This document shows, piece by piece, positions 3,993-39,482 of a DNA stretch of 64,000 bases; position 1 is the first letter of the stretch, and every line of letters begins with the position of its first letter. Source of the DNA: Thermosipho melanesiensis BI429 (lineage in GTDB: Bacteria > Thermotogota > Thermotogae > Thermotogales > Fervidobacteriaceae). The stretch lies in contig NC_009616.1 in the NCBI RefSeq assembly GCF_000016905.1, positions 1,550,001-1,614,000 of the forward strand, written 5' to 3'. The translations under genes and the position numbers were made by a program. The notes under the pieces are model-generated. The model was not told the DNA's origin. It saw only the letters and a list, made by a program, of their open reading frames with translations, and made no database searches.

Positions 3993-5291
3993 TCACCTCC
4001 TCATAAGTTCAAATTCTTCATTAATAACTCCATGTTCAAGATAACTTCTTATATATCCAACAAGATAAAATGAACCTGTTACTATTTTCAAATCAACGTC
4101 TATTGAGTTTAACTTTTCTAAAGCCTCTAAGGGATTTTCAATATACTCGCATGAATTTATGTGTTTCTTTACAATTTCATACGTTTCTCTACAATTTGTT
4201 GCCCTATGAGAAGGAGGGCAAGTAACAATTGTGTGAGATAATTGTGGTACTAGTTTTTTGATGACATTTTCTTTATCTTTATCATCTAAAATTCCAAACA
4301 CTGCTACTTTTTCCTTTTCCTTAAAATACAGTTTGAGGTTTTCAGAAAATTTTTCCGCAGATTCTGGATTATGTGAACCGTCAAATACTATACCTTTAAA
4401 CATTTCAAAACGACCTGGAATAAACGCATCTTTAAAACCTTTATATATTGCATCATCATTTAAATTGTTTGTGATTTCCAACGCCTTAATTGCAAGTGCT
4501 GCGTTTATTGGTTGGTGTGTTCCATTTAATTTTATTTTTATGTTTTTAATGGTTTTATCACCGTAATAGTTGATTATATTTTCGTTGAATTTATAATCTA
4601 CTATTTCGAAATTAAAATCTTTTCCAAGCTCAAATACCTTTGAATTTTTCTGCTTTGCCACTTCATAAATAACTTTTTTAGCTTCTTTGGGTAGACTAGA
4701 TATTATTACAGGTTTTCCATTCTTTATTATTCCTGCTTTTTCAAAAGCTATTTTTTCCAAAGAATTTCCTAATATTTTTGTGTGTTCTAGACTTATCGAT
4801 GTAATGATAGAAGCTTCTGGTATAATAACATTTGTTGCATCAAATCTGCCTCCAAGTCCAACTTCAATTGTTGAAAAATCTACATTTTCTTCCTTTCCTA
4901 TCTCAAATGCCATTGCCGTTGCAAACTCAAAGAAGCTTGGAGCAAAGTCGAGTCCTTTTTTATCTAAAATTTCTGCTACACTTTTAACTTTATCAAAAGC
5001 TTTTAAGAATACTTCCCTAGAAACGTGTTTTCCATTAATGGGAAATCTTTCTAAAATAGTTGATAAATGGGGAGATAAATATCCCCCCACTTTGTAGTTA
5101 TTTTTTAAAACGTAATGTAAAAATGTTGTTGTACTTCCTTTGCCGTTTGAACCGGTTACATGGTATTTTTTATACTTTTCTTGTGGATTATTTAAAAGCT
5201 CGAGTAATTCTTTTATTCTATAAAGTCCGATTTTTATTTTTCCGTAAGGTCTTTTAAAATATAGGTATTTTAACGCTTCTAGATAGTTCAT
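3993..5291 (-). CDS. folC: Folylpolyglutamate synthase / dihydrofolate synthase
   Basis: A 432-residue Mur-ligase-family enzyme that adds glutamate to dihydropteroate and/or folates using ATP. The P-loop HVTGSNGKGSTTTFL lies near residues 44-58. The SLEHTKILGNSLEKIAFEKA segment and the FDGSHNPESAEKF motif of the C-terminal domain are both typical of FolC. Its ATG follows a GAGGGAT ribosome binding site, and only nine bases separate it from the valS stop; the valS-folC pair is a common bacterial arrangement. Its own stop lies inside the ribosome binding site of rsfS. Confidence 0.92.
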   Translation of the reverse strand: MNYLEALKYLYFKRPYGKIKIGLYRIKELLELLNNPQEKYKKYHVTGSNGKGSTTTFLHYVLKNNYKVGGYLSPHLSTILERFPINGKHVSREVFLKAFDKVKSVAEILDKKGLDFAPSFFEFATAMAFEIGKEENVDFSTIEVGLGGRFDATNVIIPEASIITSISLEHTKILGNSLEKIAFEKAGIIKNGKPVIISSLPKEAKKVIYEVAKQKNSKVFELGKDFNFEIVDYKFNENIINYYGDKTIKNIKIKLNGTHQPINAALAIKALEITNNLNDDAIYKGFKDAFIPGRFEMFKGIVFDGSHNPESAEKFSENLKLYFKEKEKVAVFGILDDKDKENVIKKLVPQLSHTIVTCPPSHRATNCRETYEIVKKHINSCEYIENPLEALEKLNSIDVDLKIVTGSFYLVGYIRSYLEHGVINEEFELMRR

Positions 5292-27320: not shown

Positions 27321-27435
27321 ATAGTTGAAAGTGAATAAGAAAACCCGAGGGGAGCTCCATAAGCCGGGGCTGAGAGGAAGGCGGAAGTCTTCGACCCTTA
27401 GAACCTGAACCGGGTAATACCGGCGGAGGGACGGG
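27313..27435 (+). repeat. Direct repeat copy 1 (123 bases, leader plus TPP aptamer)
   Basis: These 123 bases, from the -10 region to the last aptamer base, are identical to 28852-28974. Identity covers the leader between promoter and aptamer, which has no known constraint, so the duplication or a gene-conversion event is recent. Confidence 0.95.
27344..27435 (+). ncRNA. TPP riboswitch (THI element) 1, upstream of thi4
   Basis: A canonical thiamin pyrophosphate aptamer. P1 is CCCG/CGGG, P2 is AGCTCC/GGGGCT, the pyrimidine-binding junction is CTGAGA, and the J4/5 region is AGAACCTGA followed by the P5 hairpin CCGG-GTAATA-CCGG. The 3' strand GCGGAGGG (27423-27430) is the exact complement of CCCTCCGC (27470-27477) in the 5' arm of the terminator just downstream. 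Without TPP this pairing can prevent termination; with TPP bound, the terminator can form and thi4 is shut off. Confidence 0.97.
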
Positions 27436-27466
27436 AATGAAAATTGTTGAAGAAAATTTAATTGCA

Positions 27467-28859: not shown

Positions 28860-28974
28860 ATAGTTGAAAGTGAATAAGAAAACCCGAGGGGAGCTCCATA
28901 AGCCGGGGCTGAGAGGAAGGCGGAAGTCTTCGACCCTTAGAACCTGAACCGGGTAATACCGGCGGAGGGACGGG
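28852..28974 (+). repeat. Direct repeat copy 2 (123 bases, leader plus TPP aptamer)
   Basis: Identical base for base to 27313-27435. The two copies lie 1,539 bases apart in direct orientation. Recombination between them would remove thi4 and the small membrane protein gene and leave a single intact riboswitch in front of thiC. Confidence 0.95.
28883..28974 (+). ncRNA. TPP riboswitch (THI element) 2, upstream of thiC
   Basis: Same aptamer as copy 1, with no base differences. The downstream platform differs in sequence but keeps the same logic: CGGAGGG (28963-28969) at the aptamer 3' side complements CCCTCCG (29001-29007), which begins in the 5' arm of the terminator. TPP binding should free the terminator arm and stop transcription of thiC, the TIM-barrel gene and thiDN. 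Confidence 0.97.
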
Positions 28975-28997
28975 TAGAGAAAATTTCAAAAAAGATT

Positions 28998-33308: not shown

Positions 33309-34615
33309 AAATTAGAGAATATAAAAATGCCTGTGTATGGGATAGTGGAAGATTTGTAAAAAAGAGTTTTTATGTAAAAGATAATAGTTTTTTTGGTGGG
33401 AATTTTAATGAAAAAGAGGTTGAAACAATAGACCTGGAGGGGAAGTATGTCCTTCCAGGTTTTTCTGATTCTCATGCCCACGTTTTAGGTGTTGGAATAA
33501 AAAAGTTAACGTATGATGTATCTAATAACTCATTTGATGAAATTTTTGAAAGAAAAGATGAGATTATTATAGGTAGAGGATGGGAAAGAATTGAGAACGA
33601 AAAACTTTTTGATGAACTAAATTCAATGGTTATATTAATTAGAAAGTGTGGTCATGTTGCTTTTCTTAATAAAAAGTCACAAGAGTTTTTGAATATAGAT
33701 AGATATTATATATTTGAGGAAGAGTTAGAAAAAATTTGGAATTTTTTACCTGAAGAGTTTTTTTATAGGGCGTTTAAGGTTGGAGAGAGAGAATTTTTAA
33801 AGCATGGAATTACAAGTGTACACTCGGATGATTTTCACGGAATTTCTTTTAATTTATTGGAAAGATTGTTAAAAGATAGTAAATTACGTATATTTGAAAA
33901 ATTATACACAAACACACCATGGAATTTTGAATACAGAGATTATGGCGTTTCAAAGATTATAGGAATAAAGATTTTTGCAGATGGATCTTTGGGTGGAAAA
34001 ACTGCTTATTTATCAAAACCATATAAAAATACGAATGGTTATGGCGTATTTACACTTCCAAAAAATTTTAAAGAAATAGTTTCTTTTGCGGAGAAAAATA
34101 ACTTACAAGTTTGTGTACATGCAATAGGCGATGAAGCTTTGTCTAAAACTATAAAAGCATTCGGAAAGTATAGTGGCCATAGGATAATCCACGCTCAACT
34201 TGTAAAGGAAAGTGATTTTGAAAAATTACGAGCTTTTAATTTATCTGTTCAACCTCATTTCTTTTTTGAAGATCTTGAGATAGTCGATAATATTAACTTG
34301 GAAAACATTTTAATTTATCCGTTTAGGAGAATGTATGAAGAAGGGATTTTGCTCTCTTTTTCAAGTGATGGACCTGTATCTCCCATTGATCCCAAATATG
34401 TAATTAATGCAGCGTTAAAACTTGGTTTTTCCTTTAAAGATGCAATTTTGCTATATACAGAGAGCTCAGGAAACATTATAAAAGAAAAAATTGGGCGCAT
34501 TGCACCCAATTATTTAGCGGATTTTGTAGTATATAGCGATAAAAATTTGACTAAATTAGAAAAAGTATTTGTTAATGGGGAACTTGTTTATGATACTTTT
34601 ACCCTAGAACCATAG
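33305..34615 (+). CDS. Amidohydrolase family 3 protein (YtcJ-like), unknown substrate
   Basis: A 436-residue metal-dependent hydrolase. [20 protein letters not shown] (about residues 45-64) carries the first HxH metal pair. [38 protein letters not shown] and [14 protein letters not shown] supply the remaining ligands typical of the family. No signal peptide is present, so it is cytoplasmic. Substrate is unknown. It is translationally coupled to pfkA (ATGA), an unusual partner. Its 3' end overlaps the convergent hydE gene by 28 bases. Confidence 0.85.
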
Positions 34616-35613
34616 TTTTTTCCTATTATTCTATTTAAACTTGTTATCATACCTTTGACACATTCAATACAACTTGTATCTTTTTCAAACAAACATATTT
34701 TATTTGGATAAAGTGTATAATGAGGTCTATAAGGATTTGGAGTTAAGTTTGGCATTATTACATTTGCACCTGCCTTTAATGCCATTTGTCTTCCAAATGG
34801 ATGTAAACTGCCCATAGCAGTTGTTGCGGGAATATTTGCTGTTGGGATTAATATCCTTGCTAGTGCGATTATTTTTAACGTTGTTTTTAAATCTCCGCCT
34901 TTTTCATTCTTTAGTGGGGTGTCTGGATTGGGGATAAATGGGCCTATTCCTATCATATCAGAGTCAAGCTCCTTTAAAAACATAAGATCCTTTGCAAGTT
35001 CTCTAGGTCCTTGTCCGGGAAGTCCTACCATGCAACCTGCTCCAATTTCATATCCAATTTCTTTTAATTTAAGAAGATGTAATTTTCTGTTTTCGAATGT
35101 ATCATGTGGATGAAGATAGTTGTATAATTTTTCATCTGCTGTTTCATGTCTCATTAGATACCTATCTGCACCTGTTTCTTTCCAAATTTTGTATTCTTCA
35201 AAGTCTCTTTCTCCTATGCTTAGTGTTATTGCTATATCAAGTGATTTTATTTTTATTATTAAATCTTTGAGGATATCTGTAGTGTAGAATGGATCTTCAC
35301 CAGATTGGAGTACAATAGTTTTTATATTTTTTTGTGCAATTAGCTGTGCTCTTTTGTAAATTTCTTCGGGTGTCATTCTATATCTTTTTAAATTTTTATT
35401 TGGTGCTCTGAGCCCGCAATATAAGCAGTCCATTTTACAGTAATTTGAGAATTCTATTATTGCTCTTATATGTACTTCATTTCCAACGTATTTTCCCCTT
35501 ATTTCATCTGCAAGAGATAGAATTTCATCGTTATATTTATCTGTTGAAATCAGATATTCAAGATCATCAATAGTTACACTATCTTTTTGTATTTTTTTCA
35601 ATATTTCTTGCAT
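34588..35613 (-). CDS. hydE: [FeFe]-hydrogenase maturase HydE
   Basis: A 341-residue radical SAM enzyme needed to build the dithiomethylamine bridge and diiron unit of the H-cluster. The cluster motif is CKMDCLYC (Cys59, Cys63, Cys66) in FSNYCKMDCLYCGLRAPN. TIVLQSGEDPFY and AGCMVGLPGQG are typical, and the accessory C-terminal cysteines of KICLFEKDTSCIECV are present. It closely resembles T. maritima TM1269. The ATG follows GAGGTGAT inside the end of the upstream small gene (35-base overlap). It is the last gene of the maturation operon; hydF is not in the window. Confidence 0.94.
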   Translation of the reverse strand: MQEILKKIQKDSVTIDDLEYLISTDKYNDEILSLADEIRGKYVGNEVHIRAIIEFSNYCKMDCLYCGLRAPNKNLKRYRMTPEEIYKRAQLIAQKNIKTIVLQSGEDPFYTTDILKDLIIKIKSLDIAITLSIGERDFEEYKIWKETGADRYLMRHETADEKLYNYLHPHDTFENRKLHLLKLKEIGYEIGAGCMVGLPGQGPRELAKDLMFLKELDSDMIGIGPFIPNPDTPLKNEKGGDLKTTLKIIALARILIPTANIPATTAMGSLHPFGRQMALKAGANVIMPNLTPNPYRPHYTLYPNKICLFEKDTSCIECVKGMITSLNRIIGKNYGSRVKVS

Positions 35614-35848
35614 ATTCTATCACCTCATGTAATATCTTTTTAAGGAAATCATCATCCTTTTTGTTTAGATTTTCGGAAAAAATTATAAATTCTTCGTCTT
35701 CGTAAATAACTTCTGGTGGCAGATAATATTCATTCCCCGCTTTTTCAACAAAGGAAGTACGTTTCCCAATTTTTTTGTTAATCCATATTTTACAATTGTA
35801 TTTTTTTACAATTGTGTTTAATAATTCTTTTAATCTAGAATCTGACAT
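35579..35848 (-). CDS. Small protein encoded between hydG and hydE
   Basis: An 89-residue basic-acidic protein with no domain I can name. It begins MSDSRLKELLNTIVKKYNCK and ends in a charged helix (KKILHEVIEYARNIEKNTKR). The start is the ATG at 35848, seven bases after AAGGTGA; an in-frame GTG at 35857 overlaps that site. It overlaps hydG by 14 bases and hydE by 35 bases, so it is firmly embedded between two H-cluster maturases. I recall that T. maritima has a small unknown gene at the same place. A role in H-cluster assembly is inference. Confidence 0.7.
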   Translation of the reverse strand: MSDSRLKELLNTIVKKYNCKIWINKKIGKRTSFVEKAGNEYYLPPEVIYEDEEFIIFSENLNKKDDDFLKKILHEVIEYARNIEKNTKR

Positions 35849-37250
35849 CTCTCTCACCTTTATTAATTTTATCTAATCCACTAATTACAGCTTCTTTTTG
35901 TTTCCCACTTAATTTTTCTATTTCTTTCTGAATAACTTTTTTCCCAATTTCATAAGTTTTTTCTGATGCATAATCGTTTAAGTATTCATTGAGAGTAAAC
36001 AAAGCATTTGGAGTACAAAATCTTTTTACGAAACCTGGTATTGCAAATTCCATAAAGTGTTCACCAGTTCTTCCTGCTCTATAACATGCAGTACAGAATG
36101 ATGGAATATAGTTTTCTTGGAGTAATTCATAGATTACTTCATCCAAGGTACGTGTGTCTCCTAGGATAAACTGACTTTTCTTTATTAATTCAGGATCTTT
36201 ATCAGAGTATGAACCTACTCCTATACTTGAGCCAGCGTCTATTTGTGATACGCCTAATTTTAAGACTTCGCGCCTTATTTCCACAGGTTCTCTTGCAGTT
36301 AAAATCAATCCTGTATATGGTACAGCAAGTCTTAACACCGCAACTATTTTTTTAAAGTCTTCATCATTAACTTGATATGGTGGCCTTTCTGCAATAGGAG
36401 TACCTACTGCTGGTTCAATTCTTGGAAACGAAATCGTATGTGGACCGACTCCAAATCTTTCTTCAAGGTGGATAGTGTGATAAATTAGTCCCATAACTTC
36501 GAATTTCCAATCGTATAATCCGAAAAGTGCTCCGATTCCCACATCATCAATACCGGCTAACATTGCTCTATCAAGGCCGTATAACCTCCAGGCAAAGTTT
36601 GATTTTGGTCCACGGGGATGTACTTTTTTGTATGTAGGTATATGGTATGTTTCTTGGAATATTTGAAAGGTTCCAATTCCAACTTCTTTTATAATCTTAT
36701 ACCCTTCTATAGTTTGAGGAGCGGCATTTACGTTTACCCTTCTTATCTCACCGTTCCCATATTTTGTGTTATATATTACATCTATTGTTTTTGCGATAAA
36801 TTCCGGTGAATATTTGGGGTGTTCTCCATATACCACGATTAATCTTTTGTGTCCTTTGTTAACTAAAGCTTTTATCTCTTCTTTTAATTTTTCAATAGTA
36901 AGAGTTTGTCTAACTACCTTTTTGTTTGAAACTCTAAAACCACAGTATTCGCAATCGTTTACGCATTCATTACCAATGTAAAGCGGTGCAAATAATACAA
37001 TTCTGTTTCCATAAATTTTTTCTTTTAACTTTCTTGCTGCATCAAAAATTTCTTCCCATAGTTCTCTGGAATTAGCGTTTAGTAATGTGGCAACTTCAAT
37101 TGGAGAGAGTTTTTCTTTATTTAAGGATTTTCGGAGAATATTGCGAATTTTTTCACTATCTGGAAACTTGGTATTTTCTAATAATTCCTCTATTTCTTCA
37201 GTATTAATGAATGTTTTTTCACAATATTTTTCCTTTGTAAATATGTACAT
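35835..37250 (-). CDS. hydG: [FeFe]-hydrogenase maturase HydG (tyrosine lyase)
   Basis: A 471-residue radical SAM enzyme cleaving tyrosine to the CO and cyanide ligands of the H-cluster. The SAM cluster is CVNDCEYC (Cys96, Cys100, Cys103) in YIGNECVNDCEYCGFRVSNK. The auxiliary C-terminal cluster is in FCTACYRAGRTGEHFM and VKRFCTPNAL. EEVGIGTFQIFQETYH-like sequence and GPKSNFAWRLYGLDRAMLAG are family signatures. The ATG follows AAGGAGGGAT and lies one base after the TM1266-like stop. Confidence 0.95.
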   Translation of the reverse strand: MYIFTKEKYCEKTFINTEEIEELLENTKFPDSEKIRNILRKSLNKEKLSPIEVATLLNANSRELWEEIFDAARKLKEKIYGNRIVLFAPLYIGNECVNDCEYCGFRVSNKKVVRQTLTIEKLKEEIKALVNKGHKRLIVVYGEHPKYSPEFIAKTIDVIYNTKYGNGEIRRVNVNAAPQTIEGYKIIKEVGIGTFQIFQETYHIPTYKKVHPRGPKSNFAWRLYGLDRAMLAGIDDVGIGALFGLYDWKFEVMGLIYHTIHLEERFGVGPHTISFPRIEPAVGTPIAERPPYQVNDEDFKKIVAVLRLAVPYTGLILTAREPVEIRREVLKLGVSQIDAGSSIGVGSYSDKDPELIKKSQFILGDTRTLDEVIYELLQENYIPSFCTACYRAGRTGEHFMEFAIPGFVKRFCTPNALFTLNEYLNDYASEKTYEIGKKVIQKEIEKLSGKQKEAVISGLDKINKGERDVRF

Positions 37251-37251
37251 A

Positions 37252-37503
37252 TTATCCCTCCTTCTTTATTAGCATACTTTTTACTTTTACATATTTTATT
37301 TGTCCTAATTTTCCAGTAAAACTTCCTAATATATCGTTGTTACCTTTAAATAGTATAAATATTACCGCGCTATCTTCTTCTTCAATTGGATAACCTACTC
37401 TTAACTTTATATATTTTGAAAAATTGTGTAATATTTCGTTTACTTTATCATAGGATTCACTTCTTTTTCCAACAACTATGTTTATTGAATAGAAGTTTTC
37501 CAT
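37252..37503 (-). CDS. TM1266-type iron-only hydrogenase system regulator
   Basis: An 83-residue ferredoxin-like-fold protein of the TM1266 family found beside [FeFe]-hydrogenase maturases (MENFYSINIVVGKRSESYDK, then GRVGYP-type strand and ILGSFTGKLGQIKYVKVKSM). It is thought to be a regulatory or ligand-sensing protein; it has no DNA-binding segment of its own. The ATG at 37503 is preferred. Its ribosome binding site AAAGGGGGA forms the 3' arm of a terminator-like hairpin whose six T directly precede the ATG (see 37504-37544). It is the first gene of the hydG-hydE operon. Confidence 0.8.
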   Translation of the reverse strand: MENFYSINIVVGKRSESYDKVNEILHNFSKYIKLRVGYPIEEEDSAVIFILFKGNNDILGSFTGKLGQIKYVKVKSMLIKKEG

Positions 37504-37544
37504 AAAAAATCCCCCTTTCCATTTTTTAACCAAGGAAAGGGGGA
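37504..37544 (-). terminator. Terminator/SD-sequestering hairpin before the hyd maturation operon
   Basis: On the minus strand TTTCCCCCTTTCC-type sequence (37544-37534) pairs over 11 bases with GGAAAGGGGGA (37520-37510), followed by six T (37509-37504) and at once by the ATG at 37503. The 3' arm is also the ribosome binding site. Formation would end transcription or hide the start. Confidence 0.75.
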
Positions 37545-37608
37545 AATTATACCCTTAATTTTCTCCCCTTTCCTTGGCCTCAGGTAATGTCCCTCAGCCT
37601 CAGAAAGG
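37504..37608 (-). ncRNA. Candidate cis-regulatory leader RNA of the hyd maturation operon
   Basis: Four segments on the minus strand can pair in competing ways. D is CCTTTC (37608-37603), A is CCAAGGAAAGGGG (37577-37565), B is CCCCTTTCCTTGG (37542-37530) with one more C at 37543, and C is GGAAAGGGGG (37520-37511). A and B pair perfectly over 13 bases (antiterminator); B and C form the terminator; D can pair with six bases inside A and so release B. Between D and A is a 30-base stretch that can fold as GGC-TGA-GG-loop-CC-TGAG-GCC. The topology is that of a riboswitch or attenuator. No known class is recognised. Confidence 0.5.
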
Positions 37609-37636
37609 CATCTTATTTACTTTTAAAAGAAAACAA

Positions 37637-39385
37637 TTACTCAACAATTGCTTTGCTTTTTACTGTTCTATCTGTGTAATATGTGTGTAATAGCTCGTGA
37701 GCAATATGGCTATTTGGTTTTTCAAGAAATTCTTCGTATAGTTTTTGAATATCTGGGTTTTCGTGAGATTTTCTAAGTGTACTAAGCTCATCAATTGAGT
37801 ATATTGCCATTGCACGTTTTTTAAGAATATCTGGATCAAGGCTTTTTGGTTGCCCTCCACCACCAATACAACCACCGGGACATGCCATAATCTCAATGAA
37901 GTCATAGTATCGCTTTCCATCTCTAATATCATCTAATAATTTTCTTACATTTGCGGTTCCATGAGCTATTGCAACCTTTACCTTCTTTCCTTCTATGTCA
38001 ATCTCAGCTTCTCTTATTCCATCTAATCCTCTTACTGCGGTGAATTCTAATTTTGGTAATTCTTTATTTGTGATGACTTCATAAGCGGTTCTAAGGGCTG
38101 CTTCCATAACACCGCCGGTAACACCAAATATTGCAGCGGCACCAGTCGATGTTCCAAGAGGATTGTCAAATTCCGCATCTTGAAGACCAGCAAAATTAAT
38201 TTCCTTGAGTTTAATAAGTTTAGCAAGTTCTCTGGTTGTTATTACATAATCTGTAGTTTGAATTTCTCTGCCATCTTCTAGTTTAATCTTTTGTTGTGGT
38301 CTTTTTATTTCGTCTTTTTTTGCTGTACAAGGCATAACTGATACCATAATTATATCTTCCGGGTCAACACCTATTTTTTTTGCAAAGTATGTTTTTACAA
38401 CAGAACTCATCATTTGTTGTGGAGATTTTGCGCTTGAAACGTTTGGAATAAATTCGGGATATATTTTTTCAAGAAGGTTTATCCAACCAGGGCAACAACT
38501 TGTAAACATTGGGAATGGACCGCCTTCTTTGAATCTTTCAACTAATTCAGTTCCTTCTTCTACAATTGTAAGGTCAGCCGCAAAATTTGTATCAAAAACG
38601 TAATCGAAGCCTAATTTTTTTAGTGATGCAACCATTTTTCCCGTGCTTACTGAACCTGGCTCCATACCAAATTCTTCTCCTAAAGCAACTCTAACTGATG
38701 GAGCAGTTTGAGCAACCAAAATCTTTTCCTTTCTTTCTAATAGTTTTAACACTTTTTTCCAATCTGGGGTTTCATAAATTGCACCAACTGGACATAGGTA
38801 AGCACATTGACCACATGATATACATTCTGTTTCATAAACAGGTTGATCAAATGCGGTTTGTGGAACAGTTTTGTAGCCCCTTTCAACCATTGAGTAGATG
38901 TTCATACCTTGGATTTCGCTACATACCCTTACGCATCTTTGACATTTAATACATCTTGAAAGATCCCTTTGGATAGATGGACTACTATCATCAAATATAT
39001 CTGATAAATCTGTGGGATTAAAAATAGGTCTTACATCGTATTTATGGACCAATTTTTTTAATTCACATCTTTGATCAGCTTCACAATACATACAATCATT
39101 TGGATGGTTTGCCATTATTAGAGAAAGATTAAATTTAACTGCATTTTCAACTCTATCTGAGTTCGTTTTGATTTTCATTCCATCTGTTATTTTTGTCGTA
39201 CATGCAGGTTGTAAGGTTCTTGCTCCTTCAATTTCTACAACGCAAACCCTACATGCTCCAATTGGTTCAAGCTCTGGATGGTGACAAAGTGTTGGGATCT
39301 TTACACCTAGCTTCTCAGCAGCTTCAAGGACGGTTAAACCATCAGGAACTTCATATTCACGTCCATTAAGGAAAATTTTGGCCAT
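37637..39385 (-). CDS. [FeFe]-hydrogenase catalytic subunit, HndD-like
   Basis: A 582-residue hydrogenase. In order it has a [2Fe-2S] domain (Cys34, 45, 48, 62), the His-ligated [4Fe-4S] motif (His94, Cys98, 101, 107), two [4Fe-4S] clusters (CIKCQRC...C at 145-155 and CISCGQC...C at 188-198), and the H-cluster domain. The last holds TSCCPGW (295-301), MPCTAKKDEI (351-360) and EIMACPGGCIGGGGQP. The length matches HndD of NADP-reducing hydrogenases; the extra C-terminal cluster of T. maritima HydA is absent. No NADH-binding partner subunits are nearby. Two adjacent ATG codons exist; the second (39385) is better spaced from AGGAGGG. Confidence 0.93.
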   Translation of the reverse strand: MAKIFLNGREYEVPDGLTVLEAAEKLGVKIPTLCHHPELEPIGACRVCVVEIEGARTLQPACTTKITDGMKIKTNSDRVENAVKFNLSLIMANHPNDCMYCEADQRCELKKLVHKYDVRPIFNPTDLSDIFDDSSPSIQRDLSRCIKCQRCVRVCSEIQGMNIYSMVERGYKTVPQTAFDQPVYETECISCGQCAYLCPVGAIYETPDWKKVLKLLERKEKILVAQTAPSVRVALGEEFGMEPGSVSTGKMVASLKKLGFDYVFDTNFAADLTIVEEGTELVERFKEGGPFPMFTSCCPGWINLLEKIYPEFIPNVSSAKSPQQMMSSVVKTYFAKKIGVDPEDIIMVSVMPCTAKKDEIKRPQQKIKLEDGREIQTTDYVITTRELAKLIKLKEINFAGLQDAEFDNPLGTSTGAAAIFGVTGGVMEAALRTAYEVITNKELPKLEFTAVRGLDGIREAEIDIEGKKVKVAIAHGTANVRKLLDDIRDGKRYYDFIEIMACPGGCIGGGGQPKSLDPDILKKRAMAIYSIDELSTLRKSHENPDIQKLYEEFLEKPNSHIAHELLHTYYTDRTVKSKAIVE

Positions 39386-39482
39386 CATATCCCTCCTCTA
39401 ATATATTAACACTAAACGATATTTTTCACATTTTCATTGTAACATTAAGCTAAAAAAGATTTGGTTTATTCCCTCCAAGTAA

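Follow-up and report, generated by a model that had tools for sequence, protein, structure and literature searches.

A putative RNA switch with twin internal loops in the leader of the TM1266-hydG-hydE operon

In Thermosipho melanesiensis BI429, the genes for [FeFe]-hydrogenase maturation are preceded by a leader that carries a conserved hairpin with two purine-rich internal loops, followed by an antiterminator and an intrinsic terminator that exclude one another. Comparison of genome sequences establishes the structure of the hairpin, its covariation, the mutually exclusive pairing, the association with hydrogenase-assembly genes and the co-occurrence with the small protein TM1266. The leader is regarded here as an RNA switch of the cis-acting attenuator or riboswitch-like kind with an unusual twin-loop sensor, apparently undescribed. 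It very probably belongs to a new class of regulatory RNA in at least four phyla, which would be either the RNA target of TM1266 or, the two cases being counted jointly, a riboswitch class for an H-cluster-related ligand. The preferred reading, given a probability of roughly 0.55 on comparative grounds, is that the leader would act as a repressor switch under autogenous control, with TM1266 as its binder.

The leader and its neighboring genes

The analysis concerned a window of 64,000 nt (NC_009616.1, positions 1,550,001 to 1,614,000), to which all coordinates refer. The hairpin (37612-37563) lies 3′ of the stop codon for a group A6 [FeFe]-hydrogenase and 5′ of the start codon for a TM1266-family protein. 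An initial annotation of this DNA had placed the leader between the hydrogenase gene and the genes that mature it, and family matches on both sides bear this out (NF040763 on the 5′ side; TM1266, HydG, and HydE on the 3′ side). The genes are as follows:

37637..39388, minus strand: [FeFe]-hydrogenase group A6 gene on the 5′ side of the leader (NF040763, 867 bits)
37252..37503, minus strand: TM1266-family gene (TIGR03959 / PF21699), the first gene after the leader (95.5 bits against a cut-off of 60.8)
35835..37250, minus strand: hydG, H-cluster radical SAM maturase (TIGR03955, 531 bits)
35579..35857, minus strand: 92-aa ORF between hydG and hydE, found at the same place in most Thermotogota
34588..35613, minus strand: hydE, H-cluster radical SAM maturase (TIGR03956, 363 bits)

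Neither Pfam nor NCBIfam gave a significant match for the 92-aa ORF. The small protein TM1266 matches the C-terminal part of NikR weakly, and the structure of a relative is solved (2NZC); features conserved across 33 sequences are an arginine, a GKLG motif, and a C-terminal lysine.

The hairpin consists of P1, a UGA..RRR internal loop, a 4-bp P2, a RAR..UGA internal loop, and P3. Its parts and the arms that follow it are:

37563..37612, minus strand: conserved regulatory hairpin, 50 nt (model R2, 49.2 bits in the window; model R3, 25.5 bits)
37608-37603, minus strand: segment D, CCTTTC (sequence)
37603..37607, minus strand: P1 5′ strand CUUUC, partner 37568-37572 (compensatory changes at 4 of 5 P1 pairs)
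37600..37602, minus strand: internal loop 1, 5′ side UGA, facing AAG 37573-37575 (UGA/UAA nearly invariant among 71 distinct sequences)
37596..37599, minus strand: P2 5′ strand GGCU, partner GGCC 37576-37579 (P2 pairing and both-side changes)
37593..37595, minus strand: internal loop 2, 5′ side GAG, consensus RAR (sequence comparison)
37583..37592, minus strand: P3 (GG/CC) with variable terminal loop ACAUUA (loop varies freely in length and sequence)
37580..37582, minus strand: internal loop 2, 3′ side UGA (sequence comparison)
37576..37579, minus strand: P2 3′ strand GGCC, in part shared with arm A (covariation)
37573..37575, minus strand: internal loop 1, 3′ side AAG, consensus RRR (same 71-sequence comparison)
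37568..37572, minus strand: P1 3′ strand GAAAG, shared with antiterminator arm A (covariation and antiterminator complementarity)
37565..37577 (37577-37565), minus strand: arm A of the antiterminator, CCAAGGAAAGGGG (A-B complementarity in 36 leaders)
37530..37542, minus strand: arm B, CCCCTTTCCTTGG, the antiterminator 3′ arm, whose 5′ part doubles as the terminator 5′ arm (A-B complementarity)
37510..37520, minus strand: arm C, the terminator 3′ arm, partner 37534-37544
37504..37509, minus strand: T tract (T6) of the intrinsic terminator, abutting the start codon (sequence)

Segments D, A, B, and C were read directly from the minus strand at the places where the initial annotation had put them. 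Arms A and B form the perfect stem of 13 pairs that had been described (37577-37565 with 37542-37530), and arms B and C form the terminator of 11 pairs (37544-37534 with 37520-37510), whose T6 (37509-37504) runs up to the ATG (37503-37501) of the TM1266-family gene. The terminator 3′ arm had been thought to double as the ribosome binding site, in agreement with the Shine-Dalgarno-like GGGGG at 37511-37515 within arm C. The pairing of D with A does enclose a hairpin, but the single internal loop assigned to it proved to be two purine-rich loops, one at 37602-37600/37575-37573 and the other at 37595-37593/37582-37580. A description of these loops as tandem G·A pairs with a bulged U was rejected, since the G or A at the third position is able to pair with the U.

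Folding of the window leader beats 200 of 200 dinucleotide shuffles (z −3.9). Energies computed at 37°C are −22.6 kcal/mol for the hairpin, −28.7 for A-B, and −20.8 for B-C; at 70°C they are −7.2, −13.2, and −9.9 kcal/mol, respectively, with −17.0 for hairpin and terminator together. On the 70°C values, an incomplete transcript would favor A-B unless something holds the hairpin, and the complete leader would favor the off state, a pattern that may reflect the logic usual for attenuators under kinetic control.

A model R1 search found the element to be unique in its own genome, and a model R2 match at window 4310-4354, inside an ORF, was judged false. A promoter between arms A and B was also considered and rejected, none being called there: the TATAAT-like hexamer in the A-B loop has no −35 and, on inspection of upstream sequences, is not retained in relatives. 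Elsewhere in the window, two TPP riboswitch aptamers lie 1.5 kb apart on the plus strand, at 27338-27448 and 28877-28987 (77.7 and 79.8 bits).

Conservation, expression platforms and distribution

Upstream DNA of the TM1266 gene (TIGR03959) was gathered from 46 Thermotogota genomes, and 37 of the 46 regions contain the same element. Its consensus is C-UGA-(P2, 4 nt)-RAG-(P3 hairpin)-C-UGA-(P2′, 4 nt)-RRG-G with P1 on both flanks, the two internal loops being mirror images about P2. In a MAFFT alignment of 32 distinct Thermotogota sequences, 90.6% of cells are paired and both-side changes occur at 10 of 13 pairs; the shuffle control gave a mean of 5.4 both-side pairs, with 0 of 500 shuffles reaching 10, and slid structures were 46-63% paired. 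A wider set of 73 sites agrees with this picture, in an alignment that had been fitted to the model. P2 cells are paired at 98.6-99.2%, and three of the four P2 pairs have both-side changes. The first P3 pair is G-C in 32 of 32 aligned sequences, and the second shifts from G-C to A-U. Near-fixed letters are mainly the purines of the internal loops, the U of UGA, and the adjoining pairs, with variation in P1, in most of P3, in the terminal loop and, once Clostridia are added, freely in P2 (18 distinct P2 sequence pairs in that class). The first P3 pair, which the search did not require, is paired in 24 of 24 Clostridia sequences with both-side changes. The compensatory changes that the initial annotation proposed to look for in related genomes are thus present, and they accompany the retention in relatives of the order it had described, from aptamer-like hairpin to antiterminator to terminator. 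As in other structured cis-regulatory RNA families, compensatory changes go together with a consistent place before related genes.

The element is coupled to two expression platforms. Among the 37 Thermotogota leaders before TM1266, 36 carry a terminator (mean stem 11.8 bp) with a mutually exclusive antiterminator, the combination of an intrinsic terminator before the first gene and a conserved exclusive antiterminator that defines a transcription attenuator. In these 36 leaders, A and B share a mean of 12.7 uninterrupted pairs, compared with per-leader means of 5.6-7.5 when arm A is shuffled, and from genus to genus the sequences of A, B, and C vary in concert. The one terminator-less leader (G046) and its relatives carry the Shine-Dalgarno sequence in the 3′ strand of the hairpin, as do three Marinisomatota leaders (L160, L161, and L169). 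Family f5 has no terminator, its hairpin 3′ strand being GAGGAGGU or similar, a few bases 5′ of the start codon. At four f5 loci (L122, L145, L151, and L123), the hairpin and Shine-Dalgarno sequence lie behind hydA and are followed by a short, non-conserved ORF, after which a terminator-like hairpin precedes either hydG or an unrelated gene. This ORF may be what is left of a lost TM1266 gene, or it may be a coupled leader ORF.

Within the Thermotogota, model R1 detects the element in 64 of 103 genomes. A pattern scan of a species genome collection pointed to Ignavibacteriales and Neomarinimicrobiota, and model R2 finds the element in 13 of 245 genomes of the phylum Marinisomatota and in 7 of 294 of the class Ignavibacteria. 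Model R3, built from 22 Clostridia sequences and two outgroups, finds it in 35 of 381 Clostridia genomes and, though almost wholly Clostridia-built, recovers the window site at 25.5 bits. A structural descriptor with free P2 places the hairpin in 23 of 109 Clostridia TM1266 upstream regions, with 0.42 in dinucleotide shuffles and 0 on the opposite strand. The Clostridia form may be either a homologous or a convergent version of the same fold.

The genes behind the element are consistent at almost all sites that were inspected. Thermotogota sites lie immediately upstream of TM1266, hydG, hydE, hydF (second copies), or hydA, apart from L123 behind hydA, L132 before an apparent inserted element, and the weakest matches (E 0.05-0.07), which are false. 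In Marinisomatota and Ignavibacteria, 18 of 21 sites precede TM1266 and one precedes hydG, the other two being extra copies with no assigned gene; all 30 Clostridia loci that were checked precede TM1266, hydG, or hydE.

Several individual loci deserve separate mention. At L132 (G058:C38), after 17920, the expected hydF is absent behind the hairpin, and the sequence past the Shine-Dalgarno resembles the start of an inserted element. The Marinisomatota genome G316 has two further copies (L166 and L170) with no query hyd gene in the flank, along with a standard copy before TM1266. Tandem hairpin pairs precede TM1266 in the Clostridia G715 and G1000 (L311 and L312) and probably in G835 (L206). Five other Clostridia leaders (L196, L205, L208, L182, and L187) contain a second conserved segment before TM1266, GCACGAGGGUUAGUCCCAAGUGGUAAGGCGGUGC, after or instead of the hairpin; it has no Rfam match in these leaders and is perhaps a variant second copy of the hairpin. 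The Butyrivibrio pattern matches L069 and L078 were attributed to chance, since the sequence has no hyd context and G105 lacks TM1266, and the R1 matches L120 and L129 (E 0.05-0.07), in coding-like sequence with no hyd gene near, were discarded as false.

Proposed mechanism and candidate effectors

The sensor of the switch would be the hairpin, whose two purine internal loops mirror each other on either side of a 4-bp helix. An effector that holds the hairpin would hide arm A, the hairpin 3′ strand, leaving arm B to pair with arm C, and transcription would stop just before TM1266-hydG-hydE. With no effector, A would pair with B, no terminator would form, and the operon would be made. In terminator-less lineages, where the hairpin 3′ strand is the Shine-Dalgarno sequence, binding would instead block translation, so that the two platforms would share one polarity, a formed hairpin turning the genes off. 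The effector would most likely be TM1266 itself, in autogenous negative feedback, and TM1266 perhaps reports a small molecule or the assembly state of the H-cluster. As in autogenous leaders, the candidate effector is encoded inside the regulated operon, TM1266 being the first gene after most copies, and the RNA is pseudo-two-fold symmetric, which would suit a symmetric protein dimer. We infer both that TM1266 is the binder and that the genes are off when it is bound.

The choice of TM1266 as the preferred binder follows from co-occurrence, including genomes in which gene and element are unlinked. TM1266 is encoded in 118 of 119 element-bearing genomes: above the family cut-off in 64 of 64 Thermotogota (away from the element in G049, G056, G058, G061, G062, G063, G069, and G070), in 20 of 20 Marinisomatota and Ignavibacteria (including G556, where it is unlinked), and in 34 of 35 Clostridia. 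The exception is the Clostridia genome G836 (assembly completeness not given), which has the element before hydG and no TM1266 match; both are present in its relatives G792 and G1019. No element was found near the unlinked TM1266 genes of G049, G056, G061, G063, G069, and G070, nor in searches of G048 and G094-G098. The latter five genomes are HydG-positive and have neither TM1266 nor the element between a shared tRNA gene and hydG, an interval in which their sister G099 has both, and this pattern likewise points to TM1266; since element and gene are adjacent in G099, the joint loss could be one deletion. TM1266 occurs in 234 of 391 Clostridia against an R3 match in 35 of 381, and the many TM1266-positive Clostridia without an element match likely reflect low R3 recall.

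A serious rival, though one given less than even odds, is a metabolite riboswitch in which a small molecule or ion connected with H-cluster assembly is bound by the twin loops and TM1266 is merely regulated. Conservation is confined to the internal loops, with helices and terminal loop varying, which makes the loops the likely binding site, and the order of aptamer, antiterminator, and terminator, the two alternative platforms, the tandem copies in some Clostridia, and G836 with an element and no TM1266 match all fit a riboswitch. A metabolite handled with mere help from TM1266 would also yield a similar distribution. However, TM1266 is retained in 118 of the 119 element genomes even when unlinked, and in most phyla the element precedes TM1266 also at sites with no maturase match behind it (e.g., L172). 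Conservation is moreover low for an aptamer, and a metabolite riboswitch would leave TM1266 without a function.

It is unlikely that the hairpin is instead bound by another assembly-sensing protein or complex, such as apo-HydA, HydF, HydG, or a general RNA-binding protein. The products of hydA, hydF, hydG, and hydE are possible feedback readers because these genes are among those regulated, and HydG is present in 64 of 64 Thermotogota element genomes. Yet G094-G098 keep HydG without the element where TM1266 was lost, and the Ignavibacteria copies precede TM1266 with no maturase match within the flanking ~1.5 kb.

The simpler alternative named in the initial annotation, a plain overlapping terminator whose perfect repeats permit several chance pairings within a single sequence and which has no sensor, is contradicted and rejected as highly improbable: P2, P3, and both internal loops are superfluous for a terminator and yet are kept in four phyla, A-B is maintained by co-changing sequence, and versions without a terminator occur. 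The idea that the element is a divergent copy of a known Rfam family such as TPP, presumably suggested by a superficial CUGAG/ACCUGA likeness to the TPP core and by the two genuine TPP aptamers in the window (27338 and 28877), has next to no probability and is refuted at Rfam 15 sensitivity, given that neither the window element nor its homologues match at gathering score or sensibly at relaxed thresholds and that the fold is a single hairpin rather than the three-way junction of TPP.

In the first of the two cases that were counted jointly above, TM1266 would be a small NikR-like protein with no DNA-binding domain that binds RNA as a symmetric dimer and, perhaps in response to an H-cluster intermediate, halts the maturation of [FeFe]-hydrogenase either through termination or by masking the ribosome site.

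Relation to known regulators and significance

The initial annotation recognized no known riboswitch class, and an Rfam 15 covariance search at gathering score agrees, no family matching the element in the window or in its homologues. In a relaxed Rfam search, the ylbH and PyrR matches were far below threshold; the PyrR site (RF00515) was rejected at 24.8 bits against a gathering score of 54, with mainly the terminator aligned and downstream genes that are hyd rather than pyrimidine genes. In the pyr attenuator, the PyrR-binding hairpin is an anti-antiterminator that overlaps the antiterminator and is followed by an intrinsic terminator, the effector being encoded in the controlled operon. The present leader resembles the pyr attenuator (RF00515) in its hairpin over an antiterminator and the terminator behind it, an effector in the operon being here a proposal, but differs in its two symmetric 3x3 purine loops and in the Shine-Dalgarno platform of some lineages, and the two show no homology. 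Autogenous ribosomal-protein leaders similarly place a motif before the operon that encodes the presumed binding protein, and RNA and protein occur together, whereas here the genes are for hydrogenase assembly, TM1266 is only a putative RNA binder, and no Rfam leader matches. With terminator-type metabolite riboswitches, the element has in common the order of aptamer, antiterminator, and terminator and the alternative translational platform; it departs from them in that the conserved part consists of two small internal loops and in its tight tie to one small protein.

Kink-turn and UAA-GAN internal-loop motifs contain tandem G·A-type purine mismatches adjoining a U·R pair. The loops described here share these mismatches by a U·R pair, but they are symmetric 3x3 loops, form a mirror-image pair 4 bp apart, and have no 3-nt bulge; the kink-turn class was rejected for their symmetry and the missing bulge. 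No literature on this leader or on TM1266 function was found, and hydG is unmentioned in the main text of five RNA-motif discovery papers (PMC8632094, PMC11109978, PMC6429828, PMC2864571, and PMC7266159). A survey of 224 motifs (10.1093/nar/gkx699) was outside the scope of this search, so that an earlier sighting is possible.

Control of these genes at the DNA level has been described in Caldicellulosiruptor bescii, where a Rex operator lies 181 bp before a unit of a CopG-annotated gene and hydG (PMC6391272). Many Thermotogota, in Thermotoga-type leaders (e.g., G029 and G050), have a TATAAT-like box and GTGA-N6-TCAC sites 5′ of the hairpin; these sites fit the core of the Rex operator that the same paper gives as TTGTGAANNNNTTCACAA, so DNA-level redox control may act upstream of the RNA switch. 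In this window, no Rex-type operator is conspicuous next to the element. Rex control of hydG operons has identical target genes but works on promoter DNA, whereas the RNA switch would be a separate downstream layer.

[FeFe]-hydrogenases produce much of the hydrogen of fermentation. To our knowledge, how bacteria decide on building the costly H-cluster is largely open. A conserved switch in Thermotogota, Marinisomatota, Ignavibacteria, and Clostridia points to shared feedback control, and it gives a testable role to TM1266, whose family is called a putative regulator. It would also offer a defined RNA handle to tune hydrogenase maturation in laboratory hydrogen producers. Since the element is found in at least four phyla ahead of the same genes, almost always with TM1266, it provides a route into the control of hydrogenase assembly, and with it a concrete way of learning how bacteria control the synthesis of their hydrogen-producing enzyme.
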